DNA of 23,762 nucleotides from a virus: IMG/VR virus record IMGVR_UViG_3300013132_000261, positions 1 to 23,762 of that record; one strand, given 5' to 3'. This document shows, piece by piece, positions 3,894 to 17,379 of this stretch. Position 1 is the stretch's first letter, and every line of letters begins with the position of its first letter. A model generated the notes under the pieces. That model worked only from the letters and a program-made list of their open reading frames with translations, was not told the origin of the DNA and did no database searches. Made by a program: the position numbers and the translations under genes.

Positions 3894-4619
3894 TTAATTA
3901 TCTTTTACCCCCCAATTTATGAAATAAGGTTCAACCGGTAGGTAATGCCGGTATGCCAACCCACCATACGGCTGAACGGGAATGCCGTTCATATTCATTA
4001 GTGCCGACAATAATGCTTGGTCATGCCGGCTGCTTATGTAGTGTGGGTTTTTTGACTCGTCATGGTGGAAACAATTATTCTTTGCGCCCTCTATCCACTT
4101 TTCAAATATCGGCATTGTTTTCCGGTGGTCGAAGTCAAAGACAATGCAGCAGGCCATTATCTGATACATTTGCATAACATCCTGATAGCTATTAAGCCCC
4201 AACCATTCTATTTGATGGTCGGGCATATACTTGTGTAGCGGATGCCCTTCATTGTTCCAGGCGATTATCCCGTGTTCAGATGCCAGTTCCCACAACGGGT
4301 CGGGGTTCTGTATTACCCTGATAGTCGAATCGCACCAAATGATTTTCCTATACCCAAGTTCCAACGCCTCGGCAATCATAAAGGGTTTGAACTGATACGG
4401 CATATTTTGGTGGCTCCACGATTCGCCCCACTTACTTGATACAGGCCATTGACCTGTGAGTATTTGCCTTTGTTGGTACACATCGACATAACCATCCACA
4501 CTACGAAGGTGAGTGTCATAATGCGCAGCATGGCGGTTGATTGACTTAATTAGTCCTAACTGCGCCGCATTGTAGTTTTCCCGACCGGTGGAGGAAAGTG
4601 AAACGATTACCTTGCCCAT
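3894..4619 (-). CDS. GT-A-like glycosyltransferase (nucleotide-sugar transferase fold)
   Basis: 241 residues. It starts with a strand, MGKVIVSLSSTGRENY, and carries a donor-site-like 'KPFMIAEALELGYRKIIWCDST' stretch (78-98), where the CDST acidic motif sits where GT-A enzymes hold the metal/nucleotide sugar. Later 'HDQALLSALM' resembles the end of GT-A catalytic domains. No signal peptide or membrane segment is seen, so it is likely cytosolic. Donor and acceptor cannot be read from sequence. The first 14 bases of this gene are repeated exactly at the start of the next small ORF upstream (4858-4871), which suggests an insertion at this junction. Confidence 0.65.
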   Translation of the reverse strand: MGKVIVSLSSTGRENYNAAQLGLIKSINRHAAHYDTHLRSVDGYVDVYQQRQILTGQWPVSSKWGESWSHQNMPYQFKPFMIAEALELGYRKIIWCDSTIRVIQNPDPLWELASEHGIIAWNNEGHPLHKYMPDHQIEWLGLNSYQDVMQMYQIMACCIVFDFDHRKTMPIFEKWIEGAKNNCFHHDESKNPHYISSRHDQALLSALMNMNGIPVQPYGGLAYRHYLPVEPYFINWGVKDN

Positions 4620-4871
4620 TTGTTATTCGTTTTTGAGTGTTACTTCGCCATGAAAGTCAATAAAACTATCCATATTCCATTCATTTAGATATTTTCCAAT
4701 ACTGTAAGAATTAATACCTAAAAATCCACTAATGATTCCAGAAACAATGCATCCACTTCCAGGTGCTATCATTAAAACAATCAAAGACGTGTATTTGTCT
4801 TTCATTAATTTTGGAAACTCATGTTCTTTCTTTGTAACATTTTCAGTTACTACGCTTATTACCTTGCCCAT
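4606..4871. repeat. 14-bp direct repeat flanking the 82-aa ORF
   Basis: The sequence attaccttgcccat occurs at 4606-4619 and 4858-4871, 252 bp apart. Each copy encodes the start MGKV(I) on the minus strand. The upstream copy also contains the stop of the FkbM gene, so removing one 252-bp period would leave the FkbM gene directly overlapping the glycosyltransferase gene. 252 is a multiple of three. Confidence 0.9.
4623..4871 (-). CDS. Small unknown protein; faint resemblance to a sulfotransferase N-terminus
   Basis: 82 residues, function not recognised with confidence. After a short lead, a hydrophobic strand leads into APGSGCIVSGIISGFLGIN (36-54), which looks like the phosphosulfate-binding loop and first helix of sulfotransferase-family proteins, but the protein stops soon after and lacks the rest. 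It could be a truncated domain or an unrelated small protein. Its start overlaps the end of the FkbM gene (shared ATATGGGCAAGGTAA), and it lies exactly between two copies of a 14-bp repeat, so it appears to be a recent insertion. More AT-rich than the genes beside it. Confidence 0.45.
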   Translation of the reverse strand: MGKVISVVTENVTKKEHEFPKLMKDKYTSLIVLMIAPGSGCIVSGIISGFLGINSYSIGKYLNEWNMDSFIDFHGEVTLKNE

Positions 4872-5539
4872 ATGACGTTTTCTAAATTGAGAAGTAAAGA
4901 TTTATTTAACCCTGCTTTATTGCAGTATTCTTTTATCATGTGATACAGGTCAGCATTGCCGTTGTGTTCAATGCATAACATATCAGTATATTTCAGATTG
5001 ATTTGTTCCAGTATTTCATAGTCCACACCCTCAGCATCAATGGAAATGAAGTCGAATGTTTTATAGGGTGATTTTGTTAATAGTGTCTTAAATGTCCATA
5101 CCTCGGTCATTCGTTCTTTGAACTCCACACCGGGCCAACGCTTCAGCTCTGTTTTCTTTATGGTTGAAAGTAACGATACATCACGGGTGCCTAAATGCTC
5201 ACCCATTTCGTGAAATGTACAGGTGCCATCGGTATTGCCTATGGCTACATTGAATTTATGCACAAATGGGGTGACTGGGATGCGGTTGAACGCTTCCTCC
5301 GATGGTTCAATCAGTACCCCACTCCATCCTGATTTCTGCAAGGCATAGGTGTTGGATAAGGTAACCCCATCATTAGCACCGATGTCGAGGAAGGTGCCTT
5401 TGCGGTCTTTGAAGTAGTGCAGGATTATATCCTGTTCGTTGTTTTGTGAGTATCGTATCATATCGTATTGTATCGTATCATAAAGTCCATTTAATTCATC
5501 TGCTTGCATTACTTCAATTAGCAGTTGTTTGCGGTTCAT
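4859..5539 (-). CDS. FkbM-family methyltransferase
   Basis: 226 residues from the ATG at 5539. FkbM signatures are clear: FLDIGANDGVTLSNTYAL for SAM binding, GVLIEPS on the next strand, and FDFISIDAEGVDYEIL near the end. FkbM enzymes O-methylate sugars or other small molecules, often in surface-polysaccharide loci. I chose MNRKQLL as start because the same sequence begins the small ORF upstream, where it overlaps the GT2 stop codon, probably the ancestral arrangement. An in-frame ATG at 5581 would add 14 residues, but these come from a short repeat. Residues after the start include YDTIQYDMIRY, coded by a 10-bp tandem repeat. Confidence 0.85.
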   Translation of the reverse strand: MNRKQLLIEVMQADELNGLYDTIQYDMIRYSQNNEQDIILHYFKDRKGTFLDIGANDGVTLSNTYALQKSGWSGVLIEPSEEAFNRIPVTPFVHKFNVAIGNTDGTCTFHEMGEHLGTRDVSLLSTIKKTELKRWPGVEFKERMTEVWTFKTLLTKSPYKTFDFISIDAEGVDYEILEQINLKYTDMLCIEHNGNADLYHMIKEYCNKAGLNKSLLLNLENVIWAR

Positions 5540-5583
5540 TGTAAATATCGAACTATTAAATAAGCAATTGTATCGTATCATAA
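5451..5583. repeat. Short repeat tatcgtatca, three in tandem plus one displaced copy
   Basis: Units at 5451-5460, 5461-5470 (tatcgtattg variant) and 5471-5480 are in tandem inside the FkbM gene. A further copy lies at 5571-5580. The 16-mer ttgtatcgtatcataa is present at 5468-5483 and at 5568-5583, exactly 100 bp apart. Inside the gene the repeat encodes the YDTIQYDMIRY segment. Confidence 0.85.
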
Positions 5584-5806
5584 TACCTGCAAGGGCTATA
5601 GACGAACTTTGTCTATAAACTTACAAGTGCTTTTTATTGGGTTATATTCTATTTTTAGTATTATGTAATTGTCTTTAGTCTCATTTTGTTTCTTCATATA
5701 GTCACCACATCTTTCATAATCACTTACTGAAAAGTTTTTACAAAAATATTCTCGTTTTACCCATTCATCCCCCTTCGTAGAAAATAGCAGTTGTTTGCGG
5801 TTCATT
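5519..5806. repeat. 22-bp direct repeat flanking the 69-aa ORF
   Basis: A 22-bp sequence containing gcagttgtttgcggttcat is found at 5519-5540 and 5785-5806, 266 bp apart. On the minus strand both copies encode the protein start MNRKQLL. The right copy overlaps the stop of the GT2 gene in an ATGA arrangement; the left copy begins the FkbM gene. This fits insertion of about 266 bp at a stop/start junction with duplication of the gene start. Confidence 0.9.
5596..5805 (-). CDS. Small unknown protein inserted between GT2 and FkbM genes
   Basis: 69 residues, not recognised. It begins with MNRKQLLFSTKGDEW, whose first seven residues equal the start of the FkbM protein, then becomes lysine/tyrosine-rich with two cysteines (YFCKNF, YERCGD) and a third near the end (STCKF). 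Its ATG overlaps the GT2 stop as ATGA, so translation by coupling is likely. It lies between 22-bp direct repeats and is AT-rich, so it may be a by-product of insertion rather than a functional gene. Confidence 0.4.
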   Translation of the reverse strand: MNRKQLLFSTKGDEWVKREYFCKNFSVSDYERCGDYMKKQNETKDNYIILKIEYNPIKSTCKFIDKVRL

Positions 5807-6344
5807 TGTCAGTCCTGAATTGATAGTGATATAATTCTTTGTCAATCTTCACCTCGGTCTGCAATAGCTTACTATTGTGAATCGCAGTTGCCCACAAATA
5901 GTCCTCACCGATTTTAATGTCCTGAAATGCAAACTGAATCGCAATACTCCTGCGAATAGGTACAATGTGATTCGGGTACCGGTAATACGCCCCGTTCTTT
6001 GCCTCATATCCGTACTCCTTGCTTATGTACCACTTGCGCTCATCCTTTCCGTTGGTGGTCATTATGCCGTTAAATACAATTACATCGGGGTCTTGCTCTG
6101 CTGCTTTGAGAATATCGGAAACGTAAGTATCTGCAATTTCATCATCATCATCAACAAACACAACGTACTTTCCGGTTGACCGTTGCAGTAGTATATTTCG
6201 TTTCTTCCCAGTAGAAATAAAGCCGGCATCTGATTCTACCAATATCTCTACATCTTCTCTGCGTTGCGGTGCGAGTGATTGCAGTAACCTGGACAGGTAA
6301 CCTTCACGGCCTTGCAGGGTGCAGATTAGAATTGAGAGGGTCAT
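5802..6344 (-). CDS. Glycosyltransferase family 2
   Basis: 180 residues, short for GT2 but with the catalytic core. The start MTLSILICTLQGREGYLSRLL is a GT2 first strand and helix; a GKKRNILL motif (46-53) and YVVFVDDDDEI (60-70, the DxD metal/donor site) follow; GEDYLWATAIHN near residue 147 fits the acceptor-side ED motif. Likely cytosolic inverting transferase with unknown sugar. Its stop overlaps the ATG of the next ORF by 4 bp. It lies in the cargo cluster between the terminase subunit genes. Confidence 0.85.
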   Translation of the reverse strand: MTLSILICTLQGREGYLSRLLQSLAPQRREDVEILVESDAGFISTGKKRNILLQRSTGKYVVFVDDDDEIADTYVSDILKAAEQDPDVIVFNGIMTTNGKDERKWYISKEYGYEAKNGAYYRYPNHIVPIRRSIAIQFAFQDIKIGEDYLWATAIHNSKLLQTEVKIDKELYHYQFRTDK

Positions 6345-6366
6345 ACGTTATACCATTTCGTTGATG

Positions 6367-7128
6367 TCAACAATATGCTTTTGGAAATGCTGCCTTTGAC
6401 CTACGGATGTAGGTTATTTCATCGGCACGGAATGTTGATTGTGTTTTTTCTAATAAGGCATCCGGCCTTTCCCCAGTCCATGCAGGATGGACATGGTCAA
6501 AGATTTGTTTATTAACATATTTATGGCAGCCTCGTAATTTTGCCACATCCATTGCCTCATTATCGCACCAAAGGTTCTCGTATTGTGGATGGTAGATGTA
6601 GCCGTCACGGTCATAGTATGTCCTGCCCATGATTGACATGGTTGGGAGCAAATGGTTAACTCTGCCATCCGGGAAATGAATAAACTGGTCAAGATTGCCC
6701 TCGAATGCGTTAATGATGGCGATGTCATAGCCCGGCGCAATGAATCTCATATCATCGCTCATATTGACAACAATATCACCTTGCCAATCTACCATACCAC
6801 GGTTGATTGCATGTATTTTGTTTTTACTTGTTCCAGGCACAACGTATATCCGTTTGTCCTGAAGAACATCCATGAGTTGTGGTGAATCCAAAGTAGCCCT
6901 ATCATCATCATCAATGACAAGACCGATGGTGAAGTCCGATTTGTGGGAAAATGCTTTGATAGTTACGATTGCTGCTGCCATTTTATGTGGCCGGCTGCGA
7001 GTGGCAAAGTTGTAGTAAATGCGCATTGGGGATGCTTTGTGTTCACAAAAGTAACAAAATGATTTGGTGAAATCCATCTTTAACCGACAACATAGTTTTT
7101 CACATATTGTGCATTGTCTTTCATTCAT
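6367..7128 (-). CDS. Glycosyltransferase-like protein with N-terminal Cys cluster
   Basis: 253 residues. Residues about 35-130 look like a GT-A domain: MRIYYNFATRSRPHKM, then FTIGLVIDDDDRATL, a substrate-positioning NKIHAINRGM, and NMSDDM where a DxD-type motif is expected. The first 34 residues contain CTIC (6-9), CC (13-14) and CYFC (25-28), like a small zinc knuckle. An alternative start is the ATG at 7026 (MRIYYN), which would omit it. Neighbours are the putative small terminase upstream (33-nt gap) and the GT2 gene downstream (22-nt gap). Donor and acceptor unknown. Confidence 0.7.
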   Translation of the reverse strand: MNERQCTICEKLCCRLKMDFTKSFCYFCEHKASPMRIYYNFATRSRPHKMAAAIVTIKAFSHKSDFTIGLVIDDDDRATLDSPQLMDVLQDKRIYVVPGTSKNKIHAINRGMVDWQGDIVVNMSDDMRFIAPGYDIAIINAFEGNLDQFIHFPDGRVNHLLPTMSIMGRTYYDRDGYIYHPQYENLWCDNEAMDVAKLRGCHKYVNKQIFDHVHPAWTGERPDALLEKTQSTFRADEITYIRRSKAAFPKAYC

Positions 7129-7580: not shown

Positions 7581-7928
7581 TCACTCATATTTCTGCAAAA
7601 TATCAATCACTTGCTTAGCAGAGTAAGCAATATGATATAAACTGCCCCACAATTCCTGAATTTGCTTTTGTGCCGGTGACTGGGTACCATTCGGCATTTT
7701 TAGTTCCAATGCGAATAATGGTTTGATACAAATTAAGTCCGGGCATCCTGGAAGTACCCCCATTGCCTTTAGCTTCATTCCCTCACGGGCATTTCTGCTA
7801 CCCCCATTGGGAACGTGAAAGATAAATTTTCGCATTTTTGGGTAGTTGTGATTGATAAATTTGAACACCAATGCCTGAAATTGGTCTTCATTTCGATACT
7901 CGTATGATAAAAATTCCTGTTTTGTCAT
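7581..7928 (-). CDS. VRR-NUC domain nuclease
   Basis: 115 residues, the length of a stand-alone phage VRR-NUC protein. Residues fit the PD-(D/E)xK-like site: E14/Q16 in the first helix, GCPDLICI with D64, ELKMPNG with E75 and K77, and a QSPAQKQIQELW helix (83-94). These proteins act on branched or flapped DNA. It lies just downstream of the iteron element and next to the primase-helicase, pointing to a role in replication or junction processing. A lone -7-like box TAACTTTG (8143-8136) lies upstream without a clear -33 box. Confidence 0.85.
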   Translation of the reverse strand: MTKQEFLSYEYRNEDQFQALVFKFINHNYPKMRKFIFHVPNGGSRNAREGMKLKAMGVLPGCPDLICIKPLFALELKMPNGTQSPAQKQIQELWGSLYHIAYSAKQVIDILQKYE

Positions 7929-7934
7929 GTTTTA

Positions 7935-8222
7935 TCCTTTACTGTAAAGGTTAATTTCATTTATCCTTTACATCGGAAACCCTTACTGGTATTGACTTTT
8001 AGCAAAGTGTAAAGGATGTAAAGGAAAAAAATGCATTTTTCCTATAGGAATACAATAATAATATGTGTGTGTGTGTGCATAGTGTGTATATATTATTCTA
8101 TTAACTTTATTAGAAATTATCCTTTACATCCTTTACAAAGTTACAAGATTCAATGGTAGTAAGGGTTTGAGGTGTAAAGGATAATTTTTTTTTATCCTTT
8201 ACAATCCTTTACATCCTTTACA
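7935..8222. other. Iteron-rich dyad element, candidate replication origin
   Basis: Fills the gap between the VRR-NUC and primase-helicase genes. Nine exact copies of TGTAAAGGA or its complement: 7964-7972, 8008-8016, 8017-8025, 8120-8128, 8129-8137, 8173-8181, 8195-8203, 8205-8213, 8214-8222. An imperfect back-to-back pair lies at 7935-7951. Segments 7964-8025 and 8120-8181 are mirror images with the same internal order and spacing (9-mer, 4 nt, AAACCCTTACT, 20 nt, two 9-mers). The 94-bp centre has the palindromes AAAAATGCATTTTT and CCTATAGG, (TG)7 at 8064-8077, and AT-rich DNA. Location and architecture suit an origin bound by an initiator; a transcription operator is an alternative. Confidence 0.7.
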
Positions 8223-10391
8223 TTAAAATGGGGCTGATTCGGTGAATTGACTGATTTGCGCCTCATTTTTCTCAACTTCATAGACCTGCATCACCTTAGT
8301 GTTAACTCGTTTTAACAAACATTTGAACCCTATTCGCTTTAATTCCATGCCTAATTTCCTCAATGATAGGTTTTTCAGGCCGCTTTGAATCTCCAGGTGA
8401 ACCTTTATTTCTGTGGCAGTCATAAACATTCCCCCGTTATTAAAGGGTAATGTGAAATATTTGTTAATTAATTCATATTCTATTGAGAAGTCCTGAAACT
8501 TGTCTGCTTTGTCATTTAATCGCTCTATATCTTCAGAAGATAATTGCCACTCAAACCCCTGATTGTAAAGATTATAGGCCTCAACAAATAGCTTGTCTTT
8601 ACATATTGAGTTGTACTTATCAAAATCAATACTTTTAATTTCTATTGGGATAAATCGCCTATTTCCGGTAGGATCATTAAGGATTGCTTTTGAATTGGTA
8701 GTTCCACAAAGTACTGCCAACCGGTTGAGGTCTATGTTAGTCCTACCGTATGGCTCACGGAGTGAAAATGTCTGCTTACTGGTCAAACCTTTGATGTGAT
8801 CTGCCTCCTTTTTGTTCTTTCCGGCCATTTCATCATCCAGGATAATTAACTTTTGAGTCATTAATATTTCATCATCCTTGCCGGCATCTAATTTGCTTTC
8901 ACCGTAGTAACTTTTTAGGCCCTTTGGCATCATTCTGCGAAATGCCTCTGTCTTGCCCGTTCCTTGCTTTTCGGAAACGTATATCAGCACCAATGGGGAA
9001 TGTACCCCGTATGCGCTGCTAATGACCGAAACGAGCCACTTTTTGCCAAAATAATGCAAATCATCATCTGTGTGGAAACAACTGAAAAACTTGTCAATCG
9101 TTCCTTCAGATGGCAAATCTTTATGTTCCTCAAACCATGACAATATTGGGTTATAGGATTCGGTGTTATTGCTTGTAAGCACCCGGTAAAACATATCAAA
9201 GGTTAAATCATCAAATATGACCTTTGCGTCAAGGAACAAGGTGTTGATAACTTTATCATCTAAATCTTTACCATCAAGTTCTATTCTGCGCGAAATGGTG
9301 TTAAATCTTAAATTGTATGTATGTTTAAGGTATGAGCGTATATTTTCCACCAGGGAGGTTGTATTGGAAAAATCTGCATTAGACTGAAAGGCCTGTTTAA
9401 CTATTTGCTCTGCCTCTTGCTTTTTTATGCCTTCAAACTTTTCTAAATTCTCCGCTATCTGATTGACTGATAATCCTGCCTTTTTTTGTGAGGATGTAAC
9501 TGCTGCAATGCGTTTTGTTTTTTCGCTGAATACATTGATTCCGGCTTGTTTGGCAAAGTAGTAAATGGTGGCTATGGTTATCTTACCGGTGCTTTGTGGC
9601 TGCCTTAAACAATGGGTAAACTGTCTGTCGCACATTGACCTTTCGTACTTGTTGCTGCATGAAGAAAGTTGATGGAAATACTCCCTACCTGCCTCTCCAA
9701 AATGGTCTGCCAGTCCGAATCCGATTGCTAACCAATCTCGGTAATCTTCGACACATGATACATTGGCCTCCACCATCTTTTTAACTACTTCATCAAATTC
9801 ACTTTTGACAAATATTGTACTTTGTATTTTGCGTTTTTTCTCCTTTGGCAGATACTTTTTAAATACGATGGCATTTGTGTTTAAGTATGCTTCAGGATCG
9901 TATGAAATAAAACGTGGTCTGCAAATGTCTTTTCCGCTTGGGTCAATTACTATCTGATACTTTTTTATTAGATAGTCGGCTATTGAGTTGAAAGCATCTA
10001 AATGCCTTTCGCCATCTATTTTAAATATGACACATAATCCGGTGCCGCTGATTGACATAAAACAAGCATAGACATAAGGGTCAGTAGAAAGCAGCGATTT
10101 TATTCCGTTAAGTTCATTGCTAATGTTATCTATGTCAATGCCTATGAATCCACTATGATTAGTTATGCTTTTGGCATTTCTTTCGGATGAAAAGTACCCT
10201 GATATTGTAACATAAGGCACCTGCAATTTTGCCTTTTTCCGTTCTTCATAGTCCTTCAATATGCGGATAGGGTTAACGTAATCCTCCCACTTACCAAAAC
10301 GAATATCATTGATAAATCTTTCAAGATCAATGGTTTCTTTTGATGTTGTCTGCCGGATGTTGTTGTAGATGCTTATTACAGAGGTTCCCAT
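8223..10391 (-). CDS. VirE/BT4734-like primase-helicase
   Basis: 722 residues, a replication protein joining two enzymes. N-terminal AEP-like primase/VirE N domain: GFIGIDIDNI (D86, D88), MSISGTGLCVIFKI (112-125) and RPRFISYDP (158-166). A PriCT-like region follows (about 215-285, 'DYRDWLAIGFGLADHFG'). C-terminal VirE-type helicase: Walker A GTGKT (477-481), Walker B KLIILDDE (514-521) and 'GTTNSKAILNDPTGNRRF' (563-580). It probably primes and unwinds phage DNA. Start overlaps the helicase gene end by 16 bp, and the stop codon directly abuts the last iteron of the putative origin. Confidence 0.88.
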   Translation of the reverse strand: MGTSVISIYNNIRQTTSKETIDLERFINDIRFGKWEDYVNPIRILKDYEERKKAKLQVPYVTISGYFSSERNAKSITNHSGFIGIDIDNISNELNGIKSLLSTDPYVYACFMSISGTGLCVIFKIDGERHLDAFNSIADYLIKKYQIVIDPSGKDICRPRFISYDPEAYLNTNAIVFKKYLPKEKKRKIQSTIFVKSEFDEVVKKMVEANVSCVEDYRDWLAIGFGLADHFGEAGREYFHQLSSCSNKYERSMCDRQFTHCLRQPQSTGKITIATIYYFAKQAGINVFSEKTKRIAAVTSSQKKAGLSVNQIAENLEKFEGIKKQEAEQIVKQAFQSNADFSNTTSLVENIRSYLKHTYNLRFNTISRRIELDGKDLDDKVINTLFLDAKVIFDDLTFDMFYRVLTSNNTESYNPILSWFEEHKDLPSEGTIDKFFSCFHTDDDLHYFGKKWLVSVISSAYGVHSPLVLIYVSEKQGTGKTEAFRRMMPKGLKSYYGESKLDAGKDDEILMTQKLIILDDEMAGKNKKEADHIKGLTSKQTFSLREPYGRTNIDLNRLAVLCGTTNSKAILNDPTGNRRFIPIEIKSIDFDKYNSICKDKLFVEAYNLYNQGFEWQLSSEDIERLNDKADKFQDFSIEYELINKYFTLPFNNGGMFMTATEIKVHLEIQSGLKNLSLRKLGMELKRIGFKCLLKRVNTKVMQVYEVEKNEAQISQFTESAPF

Positions 10392-16214: not shown

Positions 16215-16331
16215 ATAGCTTCAAAATCAGTTTCAACCTTATGCAAAGGATATACACAAATCGAGAAAAAGACCTTGCAATTAAAATAGATCAATATGCT
16301 GAATTATTACGCATTGCCCGGAATGTTAAAT

Positions 16332-16667
16332 ATGAAAGACCCCATCACCACCAATATTATTTTGAACACGGTGTCAAAATACTTCGATGTTCCCGTTGCA
16401 AAAATCATGTCAAAAAGCCGGTATTCTAAATTGGTGATGGCCCGGCAAGTTGCACAATACCTCATGCGCAATCAAATGCACATGACCTATCCTGAATTAG
16501 GCAGGGTCTTTGAACGTGATCATACTTCCATTATCCATTCGGTCAAATACATTAACGAGCAAATGACGCTGAAAAACCCGGATGAAATAGTTGCTCATTT
16601 AGATAACATTAAAAAAGAATTGAAATGGCACTCTTCGCAGCAGTTGTCTTTGCCTTCACCGTTGTAA
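16332..16667 (+). CDS. Stand-alone DnaA domain IV-like DNA-binding protein
   Basis: 111 residues from MKDPIT at 16332 (an ATG at 16296 would add 12 residues). 'NTVSKYFDVPVAKIMSKSRYSKLVMARQVAQYLMR' and 'YPELGRVFERDHTSIIHSVKYI' are the DnaA C-terminal domain that reads DnaA boxes. The AAA+ ATPase, helicase-loading and N-terminal domains are absent. Such a protein might bind the host origin, compete with DnaA, or help phage initiation. Region 16241-16331 before it is open in another frame. Confidence 0.8.
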   Translation: MKDPITTNIILNTVSKYFDVPVAKIMSKSRYSKLVMARQVAQYLMRNQMHMTYPELGRVFERDHTSIIHSVKYINEQMTLKNPDEIVAHLDNIKKELKWHSSQQLSLPSPL

Positions 16668-16726: not shown

Positions 16727-16799
16727 AGTCAGGTGGCGGAATGGTGACGTTGTGGAGTCGCTCTCTGCATTGATACAGGTTCGAATCCTGTCCTGACTA
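16727..16799 (+). tRNA. tRNA gene or tRNA-like gene 1, identity unclear
   Basis: 73 nt. Acceptor arm AGTCAGG/CCTGACT is fully paired, T arm ACAGG-TTCGAAT-CCTGT is perfect, positions 8-9 are TG and the D arm begins GCGGAATGG. The anticodon arm folds as GTGGA-GTCGCTC-TCTGC with two wobble pairs, giving CGC, but the base after the anticodon is a pyrimidine, unusual for tRNA. No CCA encoded. Confidence 0.5.
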
Positions 16800-16889
16800 C
16801 AAAAATGAGTACCCGCAGTACGAAACTGCTATAAAGGAGTGGTTAAATAACGTAGGATTACCCAACGGAGCTCATTTTAATTTAAACAT

Positions 16890-16995
16890 AGTCAGGTGGC
16901 GATATTGGTGCCAAATAAGCCGTCTCCAAGCTTTACGTAAAAGAGATGAACGCCTAATTTGAAAACTATTACAGGTTCAAGTCCTGTCCTGACTA
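16890..16995 (+). tRNA. tRNA-like gene 2, oversized core
   Basis: 106 nt. Acceptor AGTCAGG/CCTGACT and T stem are identical to gene 1, T loop TTCAAGT. The core between them does not fold as a normal tRNA: a TGGC/GCCA hairpin and an AAGC/GCTT hairpin (loop CGTCTCCAA) are followed by about 36 nt. A 15-nt identity with gene 1 at the 5' end points to duplication. Confidence 0.35.
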
Positions 16996-17029
16996 CAAGT
17001 AAATCAAAAACTTTACTTTCACAGCTCAT

Positions 17030-17056: not shown

Positions 17057-17146
17057 CCACCGTTGGCGTAACCGAAAATGAATATCGGCAAGGGTTAACG
17101 TCTCATCTGTGGGTGAGGGATACGGGTTCGAGTCCCGTACGGTGGT
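17057..17146 (+). tRNA. tRNA-like gene 3, possible His (GTG)
   Basis: 90 nt. Acceptor CCACCGT/ACGGTGG and T arm ACGGG-TTCGAGT-CCCGT are perfect. D stem GCGT/ACGT encloses a 17-nt hairpin (CCGA/TCGG) in the D loop. Anticodon arm CTCAT-CTGTGG-GTGAG contains GTG but its loop is one nucleotide short. Ends at the stop codon of the opposing gene. Confidence 0.4.
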
Positions 17147-17379
17147 CATGTATCAATCTTCCGGTACCCCTGCTCCCAAAGAACTTTCGTGAGCCGCTTT
17201 GATTTGCGAACAATAGTCGCCTCAGTATCCTTTGGATATAATATGTGCAATGCTTCGTGAATGGTAATTTCAAGGCGATAGCGACCCTTTAGTCGCTCAT
17301 CAATCTCAATGGTGTTGCTATGAACATGAGCCAGTCCATCGGCTTTTTCTTTGCCTAATTTACGATGGATGACTTTCAT
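17146..17379 (-). CDS. Small HExxH putative zinc peptidase-like protein
   Basis: 77 residues. ITIHEALHILYP contains HExxH (H41, E42, H45), the zinc-binding helix of gluzincin/SprT- or ImmA-like peptidases, with E54 as a possible third ligand. The N-terminal strand NTIEIDERLKG fits the substrate-edge strand. It is far shorter than normal peptidases, as in small phage proteins of this type. It begins 2 nt after the phosphoesterase stop, so the two are co-transcribed. Target unknown. Confidence 0.65.
   Translation of the reverse strand: MKVIHRKLGKEKADGLAHVHSNTIEIDERLKGRYRLEITIHEALHILYPKDTEATIVRKSKRLTKVLWEQGYRKIDT

Follow-up and report, generated by a model that had tools for sequence, protein, structure and literature searches.

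The 294-nt intergenic region at positions 7,929–8,222 of the window (the whole stretch of DNA analysed here, a 23,762-base IMG/VR virus record) is very probably a phage replication origin, with iterons read by the winged helix at the C-terminus of the primase-helicase encoded next to it. The best explanation of the data is an origin of the PICI/SaPI type inside tailed phages, with the primase-helicase rather than a DnaA-like protein as initiator. The repeats, their conserved geometry, their placement 3′ of the gene for the initiator, the turnover of the repeated word, its covariation with the wing and the exchange of wing and array as a cassette were all computed, and the comparison strongly supports, without experiment, the phage origin proposed in an initial annotation. 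The presence of portal and terminase genes assigns the window to a tailed phage. The gap is bounded on one side by the start of a VRR-NUC-type nuclease gene (7,581–7,928, minus strand), which had PHROG endonuclease and resolvase matches and no Pfam match at an E value of 0.001, and on the other by the stop codon of the primase-helicase gene (8,223–10,391, minus strand). The latter encodes the proposed initiator, a protein of 722 residues identified by domain and structure matches, with a BT4734-like N domain, PriCT-2, a VapE-like helicase and a C-terminal winged helix. Elsewhere in the window, glycosyltransferase and FkbM-methyltransferase genes (3,894–7,128) separate the terminase large subunit from the VRR-NUC side, and two tRNA genes were predicted by ARAGORN (Ala, cgc, 16,727–16,800; Leu, caa, 17,057–17,147), with a third tRNA-like copy recognized by eye near 16,890–16,996.

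The array contains nine exact copies of TGTAAAGGA, starting at 7,964 (−), 8,008 (+), 8,017 (+), 8,120 (−), 8,129 (−), 8,173 (+), 8,195 (−), 8,205 (−) and 8,214 (−), and two copies with one mismatch at 7,935–7,943 (−) and 7,943–7,951 (+). Motif counting thus bore out the number of exact and imperfect copies given in the initial annotation. When up to one mismatch was allowed, the window held 25 matches compared with 7.2 expected, a number reached in none of 100 shuffles, and 11 of the 25 fell within 288 b. The intergenic gap, given as 288 bp in the initial annotation, measures 294 nt. Two inverted 62-bp half-sites (7,964–8,025 and 8,120–8,181) share, exactly to the base as had been annotated, the order of a 9-mer, 4 nt, AAACCCTTACT or AGTAAGGGTTT, 20 nt and two tandem 9-mers. 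In arm 1, an outer inverted iteron (7,964–7,972, −), kept in the loci L004–L008, is followed by an inner tandem pair (8,008–8,025, +); arm 2 is composed of an inner tandem pair (8,120–8,137, −) and an outer inverted iteron (8,173–8,181, +). Both tandem pairs have a 9-bp step and point to the centre, and three further iterons occupy 8,195–8,222 (−), the last one abutting the primase stop codon. The centre (8,026–8,119) is a candidate melting region with 77% AT and a (TG)7 run at 8,064–8,077, in agreement with its earlier description. An inverted-repeat search recovered arms of 68 nt, 78% complementary and 88 nt apart, and in a de novo motif scan of the whole window the array was the sole strong match (score 150, with 69 for the next non-overlapping one). 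The AAACCCTTACT (7,977–7,987, −) and AGTAAGGGTTT (8,158–8,168, +) elements are positioned in the spacers as annotated, but their reading as a separate conserved signal was rejected: they score as weak iteron sites, one copy of AAACCCTTACT, in one arm, is destroyed in the relative L008, and both elements are probably decayed iterons. A possible IHF-like site within the 35-nt spacer, judged by eye, was likewise dropped because its place is not constant. GC skew does not switch at 8 kb; this speaks only weakly against an origin, since transcription in the fragment runs mostly in one direction.

Five IMG/VR contigs encode a primase with 90–95% identity to that of the window, and in all five the iterons are nearly unchanged and the spacers variable. 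A profile search added about 90 more distant loci, most with 36–64% primase identity, and reference phages were also included. In these distant relatives a different repeated word follows most primase stops at nearly constant offsets, about 1, 10, 20, 43, 86, 95, 199, 208 and 251 nt past the stop. The frame, called by a de novo motif search in each region and a subsequent check of orientation, reads minus, 45, plus plus, centre, minus minus, about 50, plus. It was found in 72 of 87 distinct regions 3′ of related primase stop codons, with no clear frame in the other 15; among the 76 regions with a strong motif, 60 showed the full frame and 12 showed three of its four parts. More than ten words are used, depending on the lineage. 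Random placement of an equal number of sites produced the frame in a mean of 6 of 70 regions, and matched control regions of genuine sequence, taken from the same loci, produced it in 0 of 44, three times over. The 44 representatives of the control comparison were chosen among positives, the unbiased figure being 72 of 87. Many of the 87 regions are related and do not count as independent cases; what does count independently is how many different words and deep lineages keep the frame. These results uphold the argument of the initial annotation that the equal spacing is not due to chance. Related phages that shared the gene order and lacked the dyad would have refuted the origin; a search for them gave the opposite outcome, since most relatives keep the position, order of orientations and spacing although the word changes.

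Across the 44 representatives, the inverted iteron and the tandem pair of the left arm are separated by 45–47 bp in 29, the tandem step is mostly 9 (7–9), and the centre has a median length of 92 nt and an AT content of 73%, compared with 60% in the locus. A CA/TG run of at least 8 nt is present in the centre of 22 of them. Array centres of clade B (for example L118 and L137) carry (CA)n runs of up to 32 nt, the length of which varies between close relatives. The same frame is present in Muminvirus snusmum6-1 and, with the word GGGGTGACCA, in Marinobacter phage PS3, and therefore crosses phage genera and host phyla. No clear frame was found within 360 nt of the stop in Nonlabens P12024L and Cellulophaga phi46:1 (35–37% identity), nor in the distant VapE phages Leuconostoc P974, Xanthomonas FoX5, Glutamicibacter Montesquieu and Bacteroides SJC20. 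A blastn search against phages yielded no match. Exact 18-mer matches in 84,980 genomes amounted to 66 scattered single matches without a dyad and were dismissed as chance, as was a single match in L012. In two unrelated lineages, a T5orf172/GIY-YIG-like nuclease gene (PF10544, PF13455) that close relatives lack was observed directly following the primase stop, either inside the array or at its edge (8,238–8,801 in L089; from 7,235 in L085, which is the same contig as L168); it possibly represents an origin-homing endonuclease.

The repeated word covaries with the C-terminus of the primase-helicase. One clade comprises 28 distinct proteins and three word classes (GGACA, GTTGC and GTATC); here residue 700 predicts the class fully (K for GGACA, I or V for GTTGC, L for GTATC) and ranks best of the 722 columns, followed by residue 695. 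On a tree constructed without the C-terminus, the word and residue 700 each change eight times, and all six independent pairs agree (p 0.031). Among the other 29 representatives, with the register of the word across clades set by hand, base 6 is best tracked by residue 702 (NMI 0.82), Q corresponding to A, R to C, and K or M to T with few exceptions; the window fits this correspondence, with Q702 and an A at base 6. The predicted structure of the primase (pLDDT 84) ends in a winged helix formed by helices 637–645, 659–670 and 677–687 and a hairpin of 691–696 and 699–708. Residues 695, 700 and 702, considered here as specificity residues from the covariation and the model, all belong to this wing hairpin, and the wing codons (residues 691–709) lie at 8,265–8,321 on the minus strand. 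In the absence of binding data, the covariation points to the primase-helicase as the putative reader of the word.

Comparison of phage pairs with different words whose primase bodies share about 93% DNA identity revealed wings that are only 69% and arrays that are only 65% identical, compared with 94% and 92%, respectively, in pairs with the same word. One such example is L114 and L120, which are near-identical up to the wing codons and divergent through the array, with similarity resuming at the next gene. Wing and array therefore travel together. Part of the covariation may reflect recombination linkage, given that the two adjoin each other. Nevertheless, K700 recurs in different flanking backgrounds (L106, L124 and L132), a pattern that argues for function as well as linkage.

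The array could instead be an operator for the downstream genes, bound by a phage repressor or by the primase in autoregulation, with no origin involved. It does precede the next gene of the operon, and iterons often serve as operators too. However, its position tracks the primase and not the downstream gene, which encodes VRR-NUC in the window and snusmum6-1 and a helicase in L084; the array stays 3′ of the primase when its other neighbour differs. The mirror-symmetric frame around an AT-rich centre and the word that tracks primase residues also speak against an operator alone, which is considered improbable, although an autoregulatory role alongside that of an origin is not ruled out. Still less credit is given to an origin bound by the phage DnaA domain-IV protein (16,296–16,667), for which TTATCC in TTATCCTTTACA would serve as a DnaA-box-like half. 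The window contains a strong Bac_DnaA_C match (PF08299, E 3e-21), and TTATCC lies at the flank of several iterons. Nevertheless, TTA is missing from the second repeat in either tandem pair, other lineages have words that lack any TTATCC, the words are not DnaA boxes, and the domain-IV family was found in just 3 of the 20 records with a dyad (which, as virus records, may be incomplete). The array thus does not conform to a DnaA-dependent origin, in which a phage DnaA-like protein acts on DnaA boxes. The protein is a stand-alone domain IV, and similar single-domain proteins are found in a few related phages. Both it and the primase-helicase had been named as candidate initiators; the residue-word covariation favours the latter, and the sparse distribution of the former counts against it. 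A packaging (cos/pac) or partition site is just as hard to sustain: both the window and snusmum6-1 have terminase genes further downstream, but the array of L084 still follows the primase although the next gene encodes a helicase, and packaging leaves the covariation with wing residues unexplained. Plasmid origins of the RepA/pi/TrfA type have a double winged-helix Rep acting on same-direction iterons; the array does not conform to this type, its neighbour being a VapE primase-helicase and its iterons standing in inverted sets.

For the favoured reading, an origin read by the primase-helicase, the steps of binding, hexamer loading and melting, and origin activity itself, are inferred. The winged helix of the primase-helicase would bind the opposed iterons flanking the roughly 92-bp AT-rich centre, and its wing hairpin would read those bases of the word that vary. 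If SaPI Rep is a guide, two hexamers would then be loaded head to head and would melt the AT-rich centre, after which the same primase-helicase would unwind and prime both forks. For most environmental phages the origin is not known, and a fixed frame beside a common primase family permits origin calls from sequence alone in many uncultured phages. Moreover, natural phage pairs that differ mostly in the wing and the origin word offer direct tests of initiator specificity. More tentatively, and with the odds somewhat against it, tailed phages may form a large set of replication incompatibility groups, in which the word is set by a simple correspondence between primase wing residues and bases and the group is switched by swapping one cassette of wing and origin, a change driven by the pressure that rivals, satellites or origin-targeting nucleases exert.

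The solved structure nearest to the primase-helicase is 7pds, PriRep1 with dsDNA, which matches the helicase part with a profile E value of 5.6e-14, a Foldseek E value of 3e-14 and a VIA Z score of 23.1 over 373 residues. In the SaPI and PICI origins described previously (PMC6092414, PMC7581432, PMC9894130), the origin lies directly 3′ of the primase-helicase gene, as in the window, where the last iteron abuts the stop codon as it does in most relatives, and is composed of two opposed sets of short iterons around an AT-rich region; the base-level geometry was not compared. The initiators belong to the same structural family (7pds; 7ola and 7om0 of SaPI5), and a C-terminal dsDNA-binding domain is common to both, recognized in the window protein as the winged helix of the model. 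The opposed SaPI repeats recruit two head-to-head hexamers (PMC9894130), and a 2018 paper termed such a layout unique to PICIs. No paper describing such a dyad in phages was found, subscription journals being mostly outside the search. The frame carries a layout thought special to PICIs over to Bacteroidota tailed phages and to at least one phage of a gammaproteobacterium. A PICI is a satellite mobilized by helper-phage structural genes, whereas portal, terminase and further phage genes are present in the window itself; only the type of origin, not a PICI element, is therefore claimed. The phage system further differs from SaPI and PICI in the BT4734-like N domain and PriCT-2 of its initiator, in the outer inverted iteron placed mostly 45–47 bp from the tandem pair and in its many words with their wing-residue correspondence. 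Two other systems share the position of the element. In pRN1, a required non-coding element lies 3′ of the gene for ORF904, a protein of the primase-helicase type with a C-terminal winged helix (PMC4234260), but this origin is a stem-loop without iterons. In SCCmec, the C-terminal domain of the Cch2 helicase binds iterons just downstream of its own gene at a putative origin (PMC7581432), but these are three 5-nt direct repeats and the primase is separate. Exchange of an origin together with the DNA-binding domain of its initiator is known from the PLEs of Vibrio cholerae, in which origins and the RepA DNA-binding domain covary and swap as modules (PMC8263062, PMC7145576). The RepA_N initiator of PLEs is not a predicted helicase or primase and its iterons are semi-palindromes of ~30 bp, whereas the part exchanged in the phages is the C-terminal winged helix of the primase-helicase.
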